From positions 620,001-684,000 of the forward strand of contig JASNGC010000002.1 of assembly GCA_038659295.1 (NCBI GenBank): a stretch of DNA of 64,000 bases, given 5' to 3'. Positions 9,943-62,601 of the stretch are shown piece after piece. The notes under the pieces are model-generated. The model worked only from the letters and a program-made list of their open reading frames with translations. It was not told where the DNA came from and did no database searches. Position 1 is the first letter of the stretch. Each line of letters opens with the position of its first letter. The position numbers were made by a program, and so were the translations under genes. The stretch comes from Enterocytospora artemiae. Taxonomy: Eukaryota > Microsporidia.

Positions 9943-10371
9943 AGAGTGCTTCTAACCAGTGTGTTCTTCTCGTTTTTCGTGCGATTCTAAAGTAAATTTA
10001 GAGAGTGCTCGACTTATAAACAAATTGTTAATTCTAAAAAAGAAATGAAGGAGTAGAAAGTTCCACTATCGATTAATGGATTATATAAGTGCAGAGCATT
10101 AGATGAAATGTTATACTGAGTTGTGCAGCAGCAATGTTTCGTTTTATGATCTGGTAAAATTCATCTTAGTGTTATTGAACTGTTTAACAGTGTTTAGATT
10201 ATACAAACAAATATCTGTTTTTGAAATGAAAATAATAGAATGCATATCAAAAAAATGCAGTCTCATTCTATGATTTTGAAGCTGAAATCTTTAAATATTT
10301 TTATTAAATGAATTTGTTCTTTTTGAAACAAAAATTTAAAATCTCCATTTCATTGTTTGTATTTCAAACCA
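9943..10371. other. AT-rich intergenic spacer
   Basis: Separates SRP68 from gamma-glutamyltransferase on the same strand. The octamer AGAGTGCT occurs twice (about 9943-9950 and 10001-10008). No gene or RNA is seen. Confidence 0.5.
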
Positions 10372-12468
10372 ATGAAACTAAATTACTGCTTACTTGTTTC
10401 TCAGATTTGGCTAATTTTATTATTTTCTACAAAAAATAATTTAGTGAGTATAGCCAATTTTCCGGAGATGCAACACAAAGAAGTTAAAACAGAGTTTTCC
10501 ACAATAGCTACACAGAAGAAATCAGAGTTAAATTTGTTGGATGTTAACGATGCAATGGACAAGAATAACTCTATAATAACCCAGTTAAATAATTGTATTG
10601 CCGATATGAACAATCCCAAAACTCCAGAAAAAATGAATAACTCTTTAATGATAAATGATTTATCCTCGGTTGGCGATTCACCATCTAGAAAAAGAGTCTT
10701 GAATAGTGATATGTCAAAGCCAGATACTTCTGTAAACTCAATCATTACCTCGTTCAGTAATTTCACCGATGATTCAAGATCAGAATTCAAAAAGTATGCT
10801 GTAAACACTGAATCTGAAATATGTAGCGATGTTGGTGCCAGAATATTAAAAAACGGTGGTAGCGTCACAGATGCTGCTATTGCTTCTGCAATTTGTATTG
10901 GAGTAATTAATTCGTTTTCAGCTGGAATTGGAGGTGGAGGATTTTTATTAGTAAAACAGAAGAACAAGAACTCCGAGGACGATTTTGTAATGCTCGATTT
11001 CAGAGAAGTGGCCCCAGAAAATGTGGAAATTGATCACTTCCAAAAATTTCCATCTGATGCTACAAAAGGTTTAAAATCTGTTTGTACACCAGGTGAAATA
11101 TTAGGTTTTTATGAGGCTCATAAAAGATTTGGAAAAGTCTCGTGGAAAAAGCTCTTTGAAGAATCAATAGACATCTGTTTCAATGGATTTCGAGCAACAC
11201 CAATCTTAGTCCAAAAATTGGAAAAAAACAAATCAGATATTTTATCAGATCCTGGAATGAGGGAAATTTTCACAATAAACGGAGAAATAATTCCAGTAGG
11301 TCATTTGGTAGTGCGAAAAAATTTAGGAGCAACTCTAAAAGAAATTTCAGAAGATCCCATGTCATTTTACACCGGAAATATTGCTCGGAAAATTGTGGAA
11401 TACTCAGAAGCAAATGGAGGATACTTAACATTGAACGATCTCAAGCTGTATGAAGTTAAGGAAAGGTCTGTATTAAAAGGTAGATTTAACTCATTCGATG
11501 TATATACAACCAATTTACCTACCTCTGGGTTGTTTGTGATACAAGCTTTGAATATTTTAGATCATTTTGATACAAATAAACTAAAGAAACTGATTGGAAA
11601 GGACAACATTGCTTATATATATCATATATTGATAGAAGTGTTTAAGTTTATGTATTCTGAAAGAAGTCAAGTAGGTGATCCAGATTTTGTGGAGAATTGG
11701 AAACTTAAGGTATCCAAGATCATCACAAAAGTAGCAGCTCACGATATTTTTACAAAACTTGATTTTCAGAATGTTCTAAACACCACAGAATACGATATGA
11801 AAAGCCCATTTGCAGAAGACCATGGCACAACACATTTAAATGTGGTGGATGAGTTTAACAATGTAGCACTATTAACCACAACAATCAACCTTGAATTTGG
11901 TTCTAAAAAGATGGATCCAGCCACTGGAATAATATTTAATAATCACATAAGCGACTTTTCAATTCCAAATATAATGAGATTCAATGATGTTCATAATAAT
12001 GATGGCTTATCAAATGCGAATATTCTTGAGCCTTGGAAAAGACCCTTTTCATCAGCATCACCAGTCATTCTGATCAAAAACAATAGCAGCCTAGACATTG
12101 ATGTGAAATCTGAGCAAAATGCAGATGATTGTTCGGAGCTATTGGTCATTGGTGCTGCTGGAGGCACTAGAATTCCCACTTCGGTTGTAGCAACTATTTT
12201 TTATAATGCCTTGGGAATTTCTCTATTCCATTCGATATCAGCAACTAGGATTCATAATCAACTCTATCCTGAGCATACATTTGTGGAGAGAAATTTCCCC
12301 AGCGATTTGATGGAACAATTAGAACAATTTGGACATAAGTTTGAAGTTTCGGATCAAAATACCACCTTTACGTCTGTACAGGGTATTCACATTATAAACA
12401 ATAATGGTCAAAGAAATATTTATGCCATTTCTGATCCGCGAAAACATGGAAAGTCTGCAGGATTATGA
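10372..12468 (+). CDS. GGT: Gamma-glutamyltransferase
   Basis: Ntn-hydrolase that cleaves the gamma-glutamyl bond of glutathione and related peptides, normally at the cell surface or in a vacuole. With the ATG at 10372 (AAACCA just before it) the protein is 698 residues. It has a hydrophobic N-terminal signal/anchor segment (about 5-26) and a polar ~120-residue extension before the enzyme domain. Family landmarks: DAAIASAICIGV and the glycine-rich SAGIGGGGF, the autocleavage nucleophile Thr486 in HGTTHLNV, and IGAAGGTRIPT plus HNQLYPEHTFVE in the small subunit. The proenzyme is therefore complete. Few microsporidia are known to me to carry GGT, so its presence is notable; no sign of bacterial base composition is visible. 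Four bases overlap the longest frame of the RNase H2 gene, but not its likely coding part. Confidence 0.93.
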   Translation: MKLNYCLLVSQIWLILLFSTKNNLVSIANFPEMQHKEVKTEFSTIATQKKSELNLLDVNDAMDKNNSIITQLNNCIADMNNPKTPEKMNNSLMINDLSSVGDSPSRKRVLNSDMSKPDTSVNSIITSFSNFTDDSRSEFKKYAVNTESEICSDVGARILKNGGSVTDAAIASAICIGVINSFSAGIGGGGFLLVKQKNKNSEDDFVMLDFREVAPENVEIDHFQKFPSDATKGLKSVCTPGEILGFYEAHKRFGKVSWKKLFEESIDICFNGFRATPILVQKLEKNKSDILSDPGMREIFTINGEIIPVGHLVVRKNLGATLKEISEDPMSFYTGNIARKIVEYSEANGGYLTLNDLKLYEVKERSVLKGRFNSFDVYTTNLPTSGLFVIQALNILDHFDTNKLKKLIGKDNIAYIYHILIEVFKFMYSERSQVGDPDFVENWKLKVSKIITKVAAHDIFTKLDFQNVLNTTEYDMKSPFAEDHGTTHLNVVDEFNNVALLTTTINLEFGSKKMDPATGIIFNNHISDFSIPNIMRFNDVHNNDGLSNANILEPWKRPFSSASPVILIKNNSSLDIDVKSEQNADDCSELLVIGAAGGTRIPTSVVATIFYNALGISLFHSISATRIHNQLYPEHTFVERNFPSDLMEQLEQFGHKFEVSDQNTTFTSVQGIHIINNNGQRNIYAISDPRKHGKSAGL

Positions 12469-57734: not shown

Positions 57735-57920
57735 TTAAATTTCCTCTTCGTGACATACTACTCTTTTAATTGTAACATTACGCCCTGGATATTGTTGTTT
57801 AGTCGGTTCATATCCAACATTAACGAGTGAATTTAATATACAAAGGCATGGGATGTATGTAACCAACACAACAGACAAGTTTTTCAAGAAGATTGCAAAT
57901 GGATCATTACTTGGTGTTAA
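57735..57920 (-). CDS. -1-frame C-terminal extension of the cysteine-module protein (candidate)
   Basis: Starting at the T5 run that ends the cysteine-module frame (minus CCTTTTTAA), the -1 frame stays open for 61 codons. It contains a hydrophobic span (DPFAIFLKNLSVVLVTYIPC) and a polar tail ending at TAA (57735-57737). Slippage of Phe-tRNA from TTT to TTT at the run would join the two frames; an insertion or assembly error of one T would do the same. Without it, the extension has no start codon near its left end. Confidence 0.45.
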   Translation of the reverse strand, partial: LTPSNDPFAIFLKNLSVVLVTYIPCLCILNSLVNVGYEPTKQQYPGRNVTIKRVVCHEEEI

Positions 57921-59260
57921 AAAGGCAGATTATCTGTGATAAAACTTTTGTAAAGTCCAAACATACCAGATTTTACGCCAGCGAAGAACACCAGAATGAC
58001 GAGAGCGAGTGAAGTCAAGCTGAAGAGATTGATAGTGTCAGAATAGCAGTAATGAATGCAGATAATCAAAACAACAACAGCTGTGAAAACCATCCAGTGC
58101 TCTAGTTTCCACTCTTCCTTTAAGCAGTTGGGCAGCATATCCCAAAAAGACAAGGCATGAATACTTGAATCTGAATTAATTTGTTGACCGCTTAAGACAT
58201 TACTACTCTTATTGATATCATAACTAGATATCGGAATGGCTTTTGGATTACTGAAATCCTCACAAACTGCTTCACATTCAGGCAGAATTTCATTATTCTT
58301 ATCGAAAACAGTTTGACAACGAACTGAATCATCAGACAAACCCCATGAAGGATCATATTTACTCTTAATTTGCTGCATTGTAGATCCATCCTTACAGATT
58401 CCCAAGTGTCCTAGTGGTAGTCCTCCGCTTCCAACAGAATATCTACCTGAACTATCAGTGGTCATCGGAACAATCTTTGCTTTTTCACCCCATTTACAAA
58501 CTGGTTCACATTCAGGTTGAATTTTTCCTTTTTCTCTGAAAACACTCCTACAATTATTCGACTCTGAGCTTGGATAGAGTATCATAGACTCATCATTTCT
58601 TGCCTTGATTGTTGCTATGAAATTATTTTCACAGACTGGCATTGTGCCAGGTGGAAGTCCCCTACTTTCAATAGGACCTTCACCACGTATTGGAACGGCT
58701 TCCAAATCCTTATACTTCTCACAAACTGCTTCACATTCAGGTAGAATTACCCCATTATTTTCATTGAAATAATCTTTACATTTAATAGAATCTCCATTTT
58801 TGCTTGGACTACCTCGCGGTGAAGAATCACCTATTACCCTGATGTCAGATATAAGTCCATCACTTCTACAGGTAGGTACATGCTTAGGTAGAAGTCCTCC
58901 ACTAGTAACATGAGAGTCAGCCGGTATCGAAACAAGTTTCGGAACATCACCATAATCACAGACTGCCTTACAACCAAGTGAAACTTTTTTCTCTTCATTA
59001 AAAGTCTTTATACAATTGAGTGAATCCTCATCTAGTTTTGGATCGGCCCCTAATTTAAAATCATTCTGGTCCCTGATTTTTGCTACAAAATTACTTTTTT
59101 TACAGATTGGTACAAGAACAGACGATGGTTTCTCACCTTTAACAGAATCATTGACTACAGGACCAGCCTTTGGAATATCTTTCTCTGTAAATGTTGAGTT
59201 AGCCTCTGCAGCAAGACAAAAATTGCACATAACAATCAGATACTCTGTTAGCATATTCAT
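57917..59260 (-). CDS. Secreted membrane protein with four tandem cysteine modules
   Basis: The 447-residue protein starts at an ATG two bases after CCCC and has a signal peptide-like N-terminus (about 1-20). Four modules of 78-79 residues follow, each with four cysteines in near-constant spacing: C53/83/97/101, C131/161/176/180, C210/237/251/255 and C289/315/329/333. Each module opens near a P-x-C, has a C-x3-F, then (P-E)-C-x-A/P-V-C, and three of the four end near a (S)-x-G-L-P linker. Two hydrophobic spans (about 388-404 and 411-430) follow, and the stop TAA lies in a T run. The -1 frame continues with 61 codons containing a third possible span (57735-57920). No known domain is recognised. 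Extracellular or cyst/spore-surface display is inferred from topology. Confidence 0.82.
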   Translation of the reverse strand: MNMLTEYLIVMCNFCLAAEANSTFTEKDIPKAGPVVNDSVKGEKPSSVLVPICKKSNFVAKIRDQNDFKLGADPKLDEDSLNCIKTFNEEKKVSLGCKAVCDYGDVPKLVSIPADSHVTSGGLLPKHVPTCRSDGLISDIRVIGDSSPRGSPSKNGDSIKCKDYFNENNGVILPECEAVCEKYKDLEAVPIRGEGPIESRGLPPGTMPVCENNFIATIKARNDESMILYPSSESNNCRSVFREKGKIQPECEPVCKWGEKAKIVPMTTDSSGRYSVGSGGLPLGHLGICKDGSTMQQIKSKYDPSWGLSDDSVRCQTVFDKNNEILPECEAVCEDFSNPKAIPISSYDINKSSNVLSGQQINSDSSIHALSFWDMLPNCLKEEWKLEHWMVFTAVVVLIICIHYCYSDTINLFSLTSLALVILVFFAGVKSGMFGLYKSFITDNLPF

Positions 59261-59901
59261 TGGGGCTAATTCTTCTTTTACAAAATTAAAGTCACAAATT
59301 TTGATGCTGATTCACACAAGAAAATTGAAACTTTTCACCAAAGCATAAAATACTAGGATATTGAGTGGTATTTCTCTTAGTTATTCAGTTGTATGAACAT
59401 CCATGTCTTTAAATGGAAAATCAATTAATTAACAAGCCATTTTTGAAGTGCCCTGAAAATTGTTAGTAATGATACTTTAAATCAATTGAGTATGTTACAT
59501 AACGTATTTTGAAGTTTATATTCATGAGATAGTTGATGAGACAAATTACAAGTATATTACTATGATTTGTTGTCTACATGCACTATTGTACTCGTGACCT
59601 GTGGTATAGATAATAAAGAACCATCACAATATGCTGGATGGAGTAATAGATTATTACCACTCCATTACAAAACTACAATCCATATTACTTCTACCACACA
59701 AATACCAATATATCATAACTAACTCAGACCTAATTAGATGGAATAGGTGATTTATACAAAATATTGATGTAAAAAGATATATGTGATGACTTGTCAGAAA
59801 TAAAATAGTATTGCCTACTACTTTTGTTGAGTATCCACAAGGATTAATTTAGAATCAAAAAATAAATCACTATCTTTGGGAATGAGAAATCTATTGGGAT
59901 G
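59261..59901. other. AT-rich spacer between two secreted-protein genes
   Basis: About 640 bases with no frame or RNA recognised. Confidence 0.5.
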
Positions 59902-60480
59902 TTAAACATGTATATCCATTAACTTTTCACTACTTATTTGTTCTATACTACTATTTATAACTGTTGGTGTGGGTGTTTTGAATGCTTTAATTAATTCAGG
60001 AATACCGAAGATAAAATGAATAAATATTACCGATGCTATAAACGGAATAATCCCGTATAAAGCAAGGAATGGTATGCCTATTATTGTGGACTTAATCCCA
60101 ATAATAACTAAATTACGCATCATGCTGATTCCCTGGGATCTTGGGACATTCATATACACAATAATAGCTGGTATAAATATGATAATTTGGCAAAAGAAAA
60201 AGCATAGGGGCAATAGGCCGGAATCATCATAGCCGTGGGATGAATCCGACACTCTGACAACCAATGCTGACTGCTAGGTTGTATCATTTGGTCTGTTGGT
60301 TTGACTGGGTGGATATCCACCATTGATCTGATTCACCTCATTTTTTTCATATACTGTGGTATTCATACTATCATGATAACATAGAGAAGATTGACTTGTG
60401 TCATTCTCTGCAAAAGATGCTTGTGTTGATGGTTCTTTGCAGAATATCAATGCAGTTAAGAATAATATAATTGTTGACAT
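59902..60480 (-). CDS. Secreted multi-span protein with in-frame TAG (readthrough candidate)
   Basis: The ATG at 60480 opens a 68-codon frame with a signal peptide-like start (MSTIILFLTALIFC) and a polar region with N-x-T/S sites. It stops at TAG (60274-60276). The same frame then continues for 123 codons to 59902: a short polar part and three hydrophobic spans (about 87-108, 120-138 and 141-158 of the joined reading) and a polar tail. The longer downstream frame has no good ATG of its own. The sequence after TAG is CAG TCA, which fits the CAR-YYA context known to promote stop-codon readthrough. GGGTTGAA precedes the first ATG, so the start motif is of GGG type, unlike most. It could instead be a recent pseudogene or assembly error. 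Confidence 0.6.
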
Positions 60481-60942
60481 TTCAACCCTGACGAGATGTT
60501 GAATATTATATACTTTCCAAAAGAACTAATTGTCTTGATTTACTTAATATGGATATCACATATAATATATTCCAGAATAAATAATTTGTATAATTTAATA
60601 GAATCTTGGTTTGAATATTACAATTTCTAACAATATATGATAATGAAGTAATGAGATACCGTATCTTTTTTAACTAATAAGGGTGACTAATATTGTCAAG
60701 AAATGTTTGTGTTAACACAAGTGTTACGGGAATAATTCAACAAATTAGTAAACTATCTGTGAAATTATTCTTATTCTATTTCACTGGTTGAATAAGATAC
60801 GATAATATTATAGAAATTTTATCTTGGTATTAGAACGAGTGATCATTTTATCACTTTCACAACAAACTATATTCATTAAATTGTTCTTTTATTCCATGCA
60901 TATTATTTGTTAATCAAGTTGACAGATTCACTTACACAAAGG
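60481..60942. other. AT-rich divergent spacer
   Basis: Between the readthrough-candidate gene and the LRR fragments. No feature recognised. Confidence 0.5.
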
Positions 60943-62601
60943 ATGTTCTCACCATTTTTACCCGATAATACACCATATATAGGATATAATATATTTCACG
61001 TGTTTATGGAGGCATGTAAGTTAGAGTCCAATGCTTTGAAAGAGTACTGGGGGAATGAAATATCCAAACTTAATTCAATTGACCTAACAATGTCATATGA
61101 TTATAGTGATACAGTTGATGAAGTATTAAAGTACATATCTTATGATTCATTTGAAGTATCGAATATTTCAATAACCAAGGATATAGAGACATTACCTGTA
61201 GTGAAATTGCTTAGGAACGTTAGAAAGTTAAATCATTTGGAGTTATCTGTAGGCAAAGATTTAAATGAAACAAATTTAAATTGCATTGCAGAGTCGCTGA
61301 AGAATATTTCACCAAAACATCTTAAACTAAACATTCCATCATCTGATAATGAGACAAACCTATTTATTCGAATATTGGAGAATTGTCGGAATCTTGAGTC
61401 ATTTGATATCAGTGATAATAGTATTGATGGTATAGTTTATTCTATTTGGAACAATTGTTTAAAGCCATAGGAGAAATGAAATTACTGAAAAAGTTAGATA
61501 TTAGCTATAATATATTGAGATTTGAAGGAACTAAAGCATTTTCTAAATCAATAACAAAACTAAATATTGAAAGCTTAAACTATCGTGTAAATATGCTTAA
61601 TGAAGGTGAGGCAGCATCACTTTTTTCAGAATTATTGTCAAAGATGCCAGAGTTAAAAATACTCTACTTGGATGACAATGGATTGACCTCAGACCATATG
61701 TTATCTATCATGGGTGGTGACAAGTTGTTGCAGAGTAGTCACATAGAAGAATCTGCATATGAGAAAGATCACACCATACTACCTTGGAACAAAATGGAAT
61801 TTTTAAGTTTATGAAGCATCATGCTGTATCATAGAAAAAGTTGAAGAAACGTTGGAATGGTTTCCCAATTTAAAAAGTTTAGGTCTGGCGGGAAGTCATA
61901 TGAACAAGATGAGTCTTATAAAACTCTTTAATTTAATACGTAAACATGAAAAGTTAACTGATATAAAGATTGGAAGATGCTACTTTGGTAGTCAATTATG
62001 TAATGAAGAATTTATTGATGACAGTTTTAGAACAGAATCACTTGATATTTCATTCAGTGACTTGAATCGTGGAGATGTCAAAGAAATCGGGGAAGTATTG
62101 AAACATATGCCAGAATTGAAGACTCTAACTCTTGTCTGGTGTAATCTAGGCTCAACAGGTCTTTCACATATTTCAGATGGAATAATAAGTTCAAAGAAAT
62201 TGATATCCATAAATCTAAGAGGAAATAATTTATGTCTAAATGATTTGGATATGATAACAAAAATCATTGAGAATAACAGGTCTATTGAAACATTGAATTT
62301 GTCAAATAATCAATTGGGTAAAGAGTTGGAAGAAGGAATGGTTGTGAGATCAGAGGCGGTTCAACATTTTGCAACTGCACTTGAATCTTTAGAGGATTTG
62401 ACAGATTTAGATATGATTGATGTAAGATTTAACAGTTCTGATTGGAATACAATACTCAAATCGATTATAAAACTTCCTAGTTTGGAGAAGTTTAAAATTT
62501 ATTGTGGTGATTTCGGATTAATGGATAAAGATACTAGAGAATTGTTGAACCTCCTTAAAGGCAGAGGGGTATGTGTTTCCATTGCAATATGGTTGCCGTA
62601 A
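60943..62601 (+). pseudogene. LRR-family gene, frame broken at two places
   Basis: Three LRR-bearing frames follow one another. Segment A (60943-61470, frame 1) begins MFSPFLPDNTPYIGYN and ends in LRRs (NLESFDISDNSIDGI). Segment B (61446-61814, frame 3) continues with MKLLKKLDISYNILRFEG. Segment C (open from 61807, frame 1, to 62601) resumes LRRs such as SIETLNLSNNQLGKELEEG. The repeats are of the ribonuclease-inhibitor type (~28 residues). Two compensating shifts near 61430-61446 and 61807-61814 would be needed to join them. A disrupted subtelomeric LRR gene is the simplest reading; sequencing indels could also explain it. No start motif precedes 60943. Confidence 0.72.

Follow-up and report, generated by a model that had tools for sequence, protein, structure and literature searches.

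On the minus strand of the window, by which we mean the whole 64,000-nucleotide stretch of Enterocytospora artemiae DNA analysed here (C2:620001–684000, in an assembly of 3,015,070 bases and 5 contigs), an open reading frame starting at position 60480 runs for 68 codons to a TAG at 60274–60276, and the same frame then continues through 123 open codons to a TAA at 59902–59904 (Table 1). The nine bases TAGCAGTCA (60268–60276) read TAG CAG TCA, which places directly after the stop a hexamer that fits CARYYA, a described leaky context. The position of the TAG, both parts of the frame and the match to UAG-CARYYA had been pointed out in an earlier note on this DNA, and all were recovered when the sequence was re-read. 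The locus lies about 12 kb from a contig end. A search with Mre11 puts the organism within the microsporidia: of the 120 matches listed, those with a name that score best are Vittaforma corneae, Glugoides intestinalis and Hepatospora eriocheir, at 38–39% identity, with others, unnamed, scoring equal or higher. Elsewhere in the window, a frame at 10357–12468 resembles, judging by its sequence, gamma-glutamyltranspeptidase, which we had not expected in a microsporidian.

Table 1. Features at and around the stop-split gene, in window coordinates.
Feature	Position	Strand	Basis or remark
GGG start-site motif	60486..60488	(-)	5 nt upstream of the ATG; same spacing at L002, L003 and L004
68-codon ORF with signal-peptide-like start, ending in TAG	60274..60480	(-)	ORF reading, codon score and similarity to L004
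TAG CAG TCA, stop codon and CARYYA hexamer	60268..60276	(-)	read in the sequence
Possible RNA stem-loop, beginning 5 nt past the stop	60201..60268	(-)	folding
123 open codons and TAA; hydrophobic membrane region and polar tail	59902..60273	(-)	homologous to L002–L004
Gene tail and 3' spacer, fragments of which recur elsewhere	59798..59978	(-)	DNA search
Downstream neighbour, 447-aa member of a cysteine-containing secreted-like family	57917..59260	(-)	frame shorter than that of a near-identical copy
Neighbour, remains of a leucine-rich-repeat gene, three pieces in two frames	60907..62601	(+)	frame reading

A hydropathy scan with a 19-residue window gave two clear peaks in the downstream piece, starting at residues 21 and 67, the second of which sits in a stretch long enough for two spans, and three peaks in the paralog L002. 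Two of the three membrane spans claimed in the earlier note are thus clear, and the third is probable only. The first in-frame ATG past the TAG comes at codon 41 of the extension, beyond the first hydrophobic stretch, in agreement with the earlier statement that the downstream part lacks a good start codon of its own. The 123 codons contain no second disabling change.

The piece before the stop has a codon score of 0.221, close to the median of 0.225 for real 68-codon gene pieces, a value that is also reached by one antisense frame containing 5 stops. For the extension the score is 0.101, higher than in its own other frames but lower than the 5th percentile of 68-codon gene pieces (0.109). With synonymous choices only, the extension reaches 0.103, against a 5th percentile of 0.098 for 89 pieces; L003 gives 0.12 in its membrane part and L002 0.246. 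Since the uninterrupted L003 is low in this part too, the low score of the extension is as compatible with a living gene as with a dying one.

A GGG five bases before an ATG is common to all four genes of the family (the window copy, L002, L003 and L004). Among the 140 ORFs of at least 150 aa that we sampled, 84 carry GGG or CCC within 20 nt upstream, compared with 1030 of 5774 plus-strand ATGs, and a GGG-like motif of this kind is a known microsporidian start-site signal according to the part of PMC2803860 drawn on here.

Paralogs and selection in the family

When the downstream piece was searched against its own genome at the protein level, four places were found, namely itself, L002 (49%), L003 (41%) and L004 (40%). 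L003 and L004 are each open throughout their 162 aa, and in both a signal-peptide-like start leads through a polar linker into the membrane region shared with the window copy. In the reverse search, residues 3–159 of L004 aligned with the window copy at 32% identity with one TAG inside, and because this uninterrupted paralog matches on both sides of the TAG, the two halves belong together. Judged from their sequences, the two halves at 59902–60480 are one gene, as the earlier note had supposed, and its family is a small, lineage-specific, microsporidian one with a signal-peptide-like start, a short linker and two to three predicted membrane spans. L002 lacks the secreted part, as the ATG behind its GGG stands just before the membrane region.

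The similarity across the start of the gene resides in its first residues. In an ungapped comparison with the start of L004, the pre-stop piece scored 53, which none of 1000 shuffles reached; without its first 20 residues, similarity to L004 was undetectable, 620 of 1000 shuffles scoring as well. Used alone in an own-genome search, the pre-stop piece found itself only. No homologs of the downstream piece or of L004 outside the genome were found in the protein collection searched, at an E-value of 0.001, and the Pfam matches of the family lay below the cut-off and were not trusted.

L003 and L004 sit in a duplicated segment of 4.8 kb whose copies are 99.6% identical, and both genes are about 62 kb or more from contig ends. 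The copies of the segment differ at 18 positions. Ten of these are packed into 61 bases at the 3' end of the paralog (L008:5334-5394 on C4, compared with L009 on C1), are spread over the codon positions as 4, 4 and 2, and cause 7 amino-acid differences; a further 5 lie within 17 bases further on. This clustering at the 3' end of L003 and L004 suggests gene conversion or fast local change.

A codon model fitted to three sequences gave an omega of 0.60 on the window branch, and setting this to 1 costs 0.35 log units (-1128.90 against -1128.55), so that this branch is indistinguishable from a neutral one. Compared with one shared omega, an omega of 1 costs 0.98 on L002 and 0.62 on L003. Setting all branches to 1 gave -1131.83 against -1128.60 for the shared value, a cost of 3.2, by which the three sequences together show some constraint. 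Changes unique to the window copy are distributed over the three codon positions as 13, 14 and 16, those unique to L002 as 8, 8 and 15, and those unique to L003 as 20, 10 and 19.

Surroundings and other stop-split genes

A DNA search returned 11 places, 8 of which fall in the gene tail and 3' spacer. The last codons of the gene, the 3' spacer or both thus recur at eight other places, of which four include coding sequence beyond the last three codons and seven lie within 40 kb of a contig end; a protein search revealed the membrane region at none of the eight, and the six that were aligned look like degenerate tails. The neighbours on both sides are frame-broken. Compared with a copy near a contig end, the cysteine-containing neighbour has its frame cut short by a single-base length change within several hundred bases that are otherwise identical, and the leucine-rich-repeat gene on the other side is in pieces. 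Together, the tail fragments and the broken neighbours look like a decaying array. The cysteine-containing family itself, with places on C1–C5, has several mosaic copies, mostly near contig ends; by eye, the window copy seems to contain about four internal repeats, and Pfam gave no match for two members.

The frequency of stop-split genes was estimated in a non-random sample of 304 kb comprising 25 sequences (the window, four stretches around the family and twenty stretches of C1 including its ends); 2 kb of this sample occur in it twice, and a 4.8-kb segment has a near-identical duplicate there. An ORF of at least 50 aa starting with ATG and followed by at least 100 open codons occurs in 12 frames. 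When the pieces on both sides were read, three of these proved to be one gene split by a stop, namely the window gene, an acyl-CoA-synthetase-like gene and a near-end family gene; the other nine were judged by eye, with Pfam on three of them, to be antisense or non-coding, or to be continued by the next gene without a change of frame. Under the stricter limit of at least 150 aa before the stop, 3 of 140 ORFs are followed by at least 100 open codons, two being split genes and one apparently running into the next gene in the same frame.

The acyl-CoA-synthetase-like gene (C1:201526-203424, L023) is interrupted by an in-frame TAA, before and after which an AMP-binding domain is recognised, and an uninterrupted paralog with a 661-aa open frame and 49% identity lies a few kb away. 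The near-end family gene (L020:3492-5528) is split by an in-frame TAG where its relatives, compared by eye, have a sense codon. Its downstream part runs into sequence like the leucine-rich-repeat gene of the window, so that in this copy the large near-end family and the leucine-rich-repeat genes seem to form a single gene. The bases after the stop in these two split genes are TCCAAC and GATTTG, neither of which is CARYYA.

A reassigned TAG was rejected as an explanation of the open downstream frame, since TAG is a regular terminator here (the 140 ORFs of at least 150 aa end in TAA 85 times, TGA 29 times and TAG 26 times) and eRF1 looks standard. The eRF1 frame (L041:1468-2640) keeps GTS, NIKS and YxCxxxF, the recognition motifs of eRF1; next to NIKS there is a single conservative change (TATNIKS, against TASNIKS in the best PDB match).

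Weighing the explanations of the stop

The earlier note had proposed a programmed stop, readthrough of which would turn a secreted peptide into a membrane-anchored form. In this reading the UAG in its CARYYA context would be partly decoded by a near-cognate tRNA, possibly helped by the stem-loop, to give a minor membrane-anchored form beside the secreted 68-aa peptide. We consider this unlikely. The stop and the following CAGTCA do fit the hexamer described as a stimulator of readthrough after UAG, which acted about equally after UGA and UAG in the test reported in the part of PMC4132726 drawn on here, and the extension is open over 123 codons that are homologous to a real membrane region in the paralogs. 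The gene resembles the tobacco mosaic virus class of readthrough in the CAG UCA after its UAG and in the open frame that continues beyond; it differs from that class in having two full-length paralogs with no stop there (L002 does not cover the place) and in being known from sequence alone. Readthrough that yields a second form of a protein, with one protein in two locations, is also known in fungi, in the part of PMC4207609 used here; those cases involve UGA CU and peroxisomal signals, whereas the window gene has another stop and context and a membrane region rather than a short sorting signal.

Of 6584 in-frame codon pairs, 14 (0.21%) start a CARYYA. The hexamer is absent after the ends of all 140 ORFs of at least 150 aa in the sample, and as TAGCARYYA it shows no enrichment genome-wide (149 occurrences, against 159 for the reversed pattern). 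Extrapolating from three split genes in the non-random 304 kb gives about 30 per genome, among which one would carry CARYYA by chance in about 6% of genomes; the window site was picked because its context matched, and the other two split genes lack it. The hairpin, which speaks for readthrough in that it begins 5 nt past the stop and is unmatched in the paralogs (the corresponding stretches of L002–L004 fold much more weakly), has a folding energy of -23.3 kcal/mol and a z of -2.6, or -2.3 when recomputed with 300 shuffles. Folds as stable occur in 53 of 15150 windows (0.35%) and, once matched for GC, in 26 of 572 (4.5%); a z of -2.6 or less is reached by 37 of 1500 random windows, and a 130-nt window has a z of -0.72. 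The hairpin is thus mildly unusual only. We know of no programmed readthrough in microsporidia, and a narrow literature search, covering titles and the starts of abstracts, described none.

A base-calling or assembly error at 60274–60276, or one allele of a heterozygous site, would mean that the gene is, or can be, uninterrupted, as L003 and L004 are, and the neighbouring gene does differ from an otherwise identical copy by a single-base length change of the kind produced by read errors or very fresh mutations. The TAG, however, does not come from a length change, the frame being the same on both sides, and long intact ORFs are common (the 140 of at least 150 aa), a weak sign of a sound assembly; we regard such an error or allele as quite unlikely. 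Removal of the stop by a short intron seems very improbable. Spliceosome parts are present (a Prp8 domain and U6 RNA), and a 63-nt GT...AG stretch whose last bases are the TAG could be removed without shifting the frame, but it has 43% GC where the window has about 31%, L003 and L004 read straight through this part, and the gene contains no GTAAG donor, although the species' own donor consensus may differ (a scan of the 304-kb sample for introns gave no clear one). Microsporidian introns are moreover few and largely confined to ribosomal-protein genes, according to the part of PMC3749934 consulted. Equally little credence attaches to the downstream part being a separate gene, read from a non-ATG codon or from the ATG after the first hydrophobic stretch in the manner of the short paralog L002, whose membrane region follows an ATG that has a GGG of its own, the frame there lacking a signal peptide. 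By eye, neither GGG nor CCC stands within 20 nt upstream of the in-frame ATG at codon 41; in the first stretch a CCCC does lie near an ATG, but out of frame.

The window gene is probably a redundant copy within a lineage-specific membrane-protein family, recently hit by a nonsense mutation. A member of the family would have acquired a nonsense codon in its linker, leaving a locus that may now yield at most a 68-aa secreted peptide, or nothing useful, while two uninterrupted copies, near-identical to each other, remain elsewhere (L003 and L004). The recent pseudogene, which the earlier note had allowed as an alternative, fits the locus better than a programmed stop: an uninterrupted homolog aligns across an in-frame TAG that is presumably disabling, L003 and L004 run from signal peptide to membrane region, the gene lies among tail fragments and frame-broken neighbours, the sample contains two other stop-split genes, and the window copy's own changes are spread evenly over the three codon positions. 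Counted against the lesion are the intact start motif, the lack of further damage in the 123 codons, the roughly 0.2% chance of a CARYYA match at any one codon, the window-branch omega, for which 0.60 and 1 are so little apart, and the constraint visible in the three sequences taken together. The intact start-site motif and the intact rest of the frame indicate that the lesion is probably recent, and we infer that the window copy is non-functional.

The locus invites comparison with expanded microsporidian gene families in which pseudogenes may be present, such as the leucine-rich-repeat family of Spraguea (PMC3749934, in part). Like these, it is lineage-specific, lies beside leucine-rich-repeat genes near a contig end and includes broken copies; unlike them, the family is small, with 4 loci, and its uninterrupted full-length copies are far from the contig ends.

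Were readthrough true after all, a secreted parasite protein would exist in two forms, and gene expression in this eukaryotic genome, a very compact one, would gain a further layer. Taken as one member, split by a nonsense codon, of a small membrane-protein family specific to the parasite, the gene is probably ordinary, and it documents a family whose downstream piece and L004 stand without a homolog in the protein collection searched. The locus also lies in a near-end array whose copies seem to be decaying.
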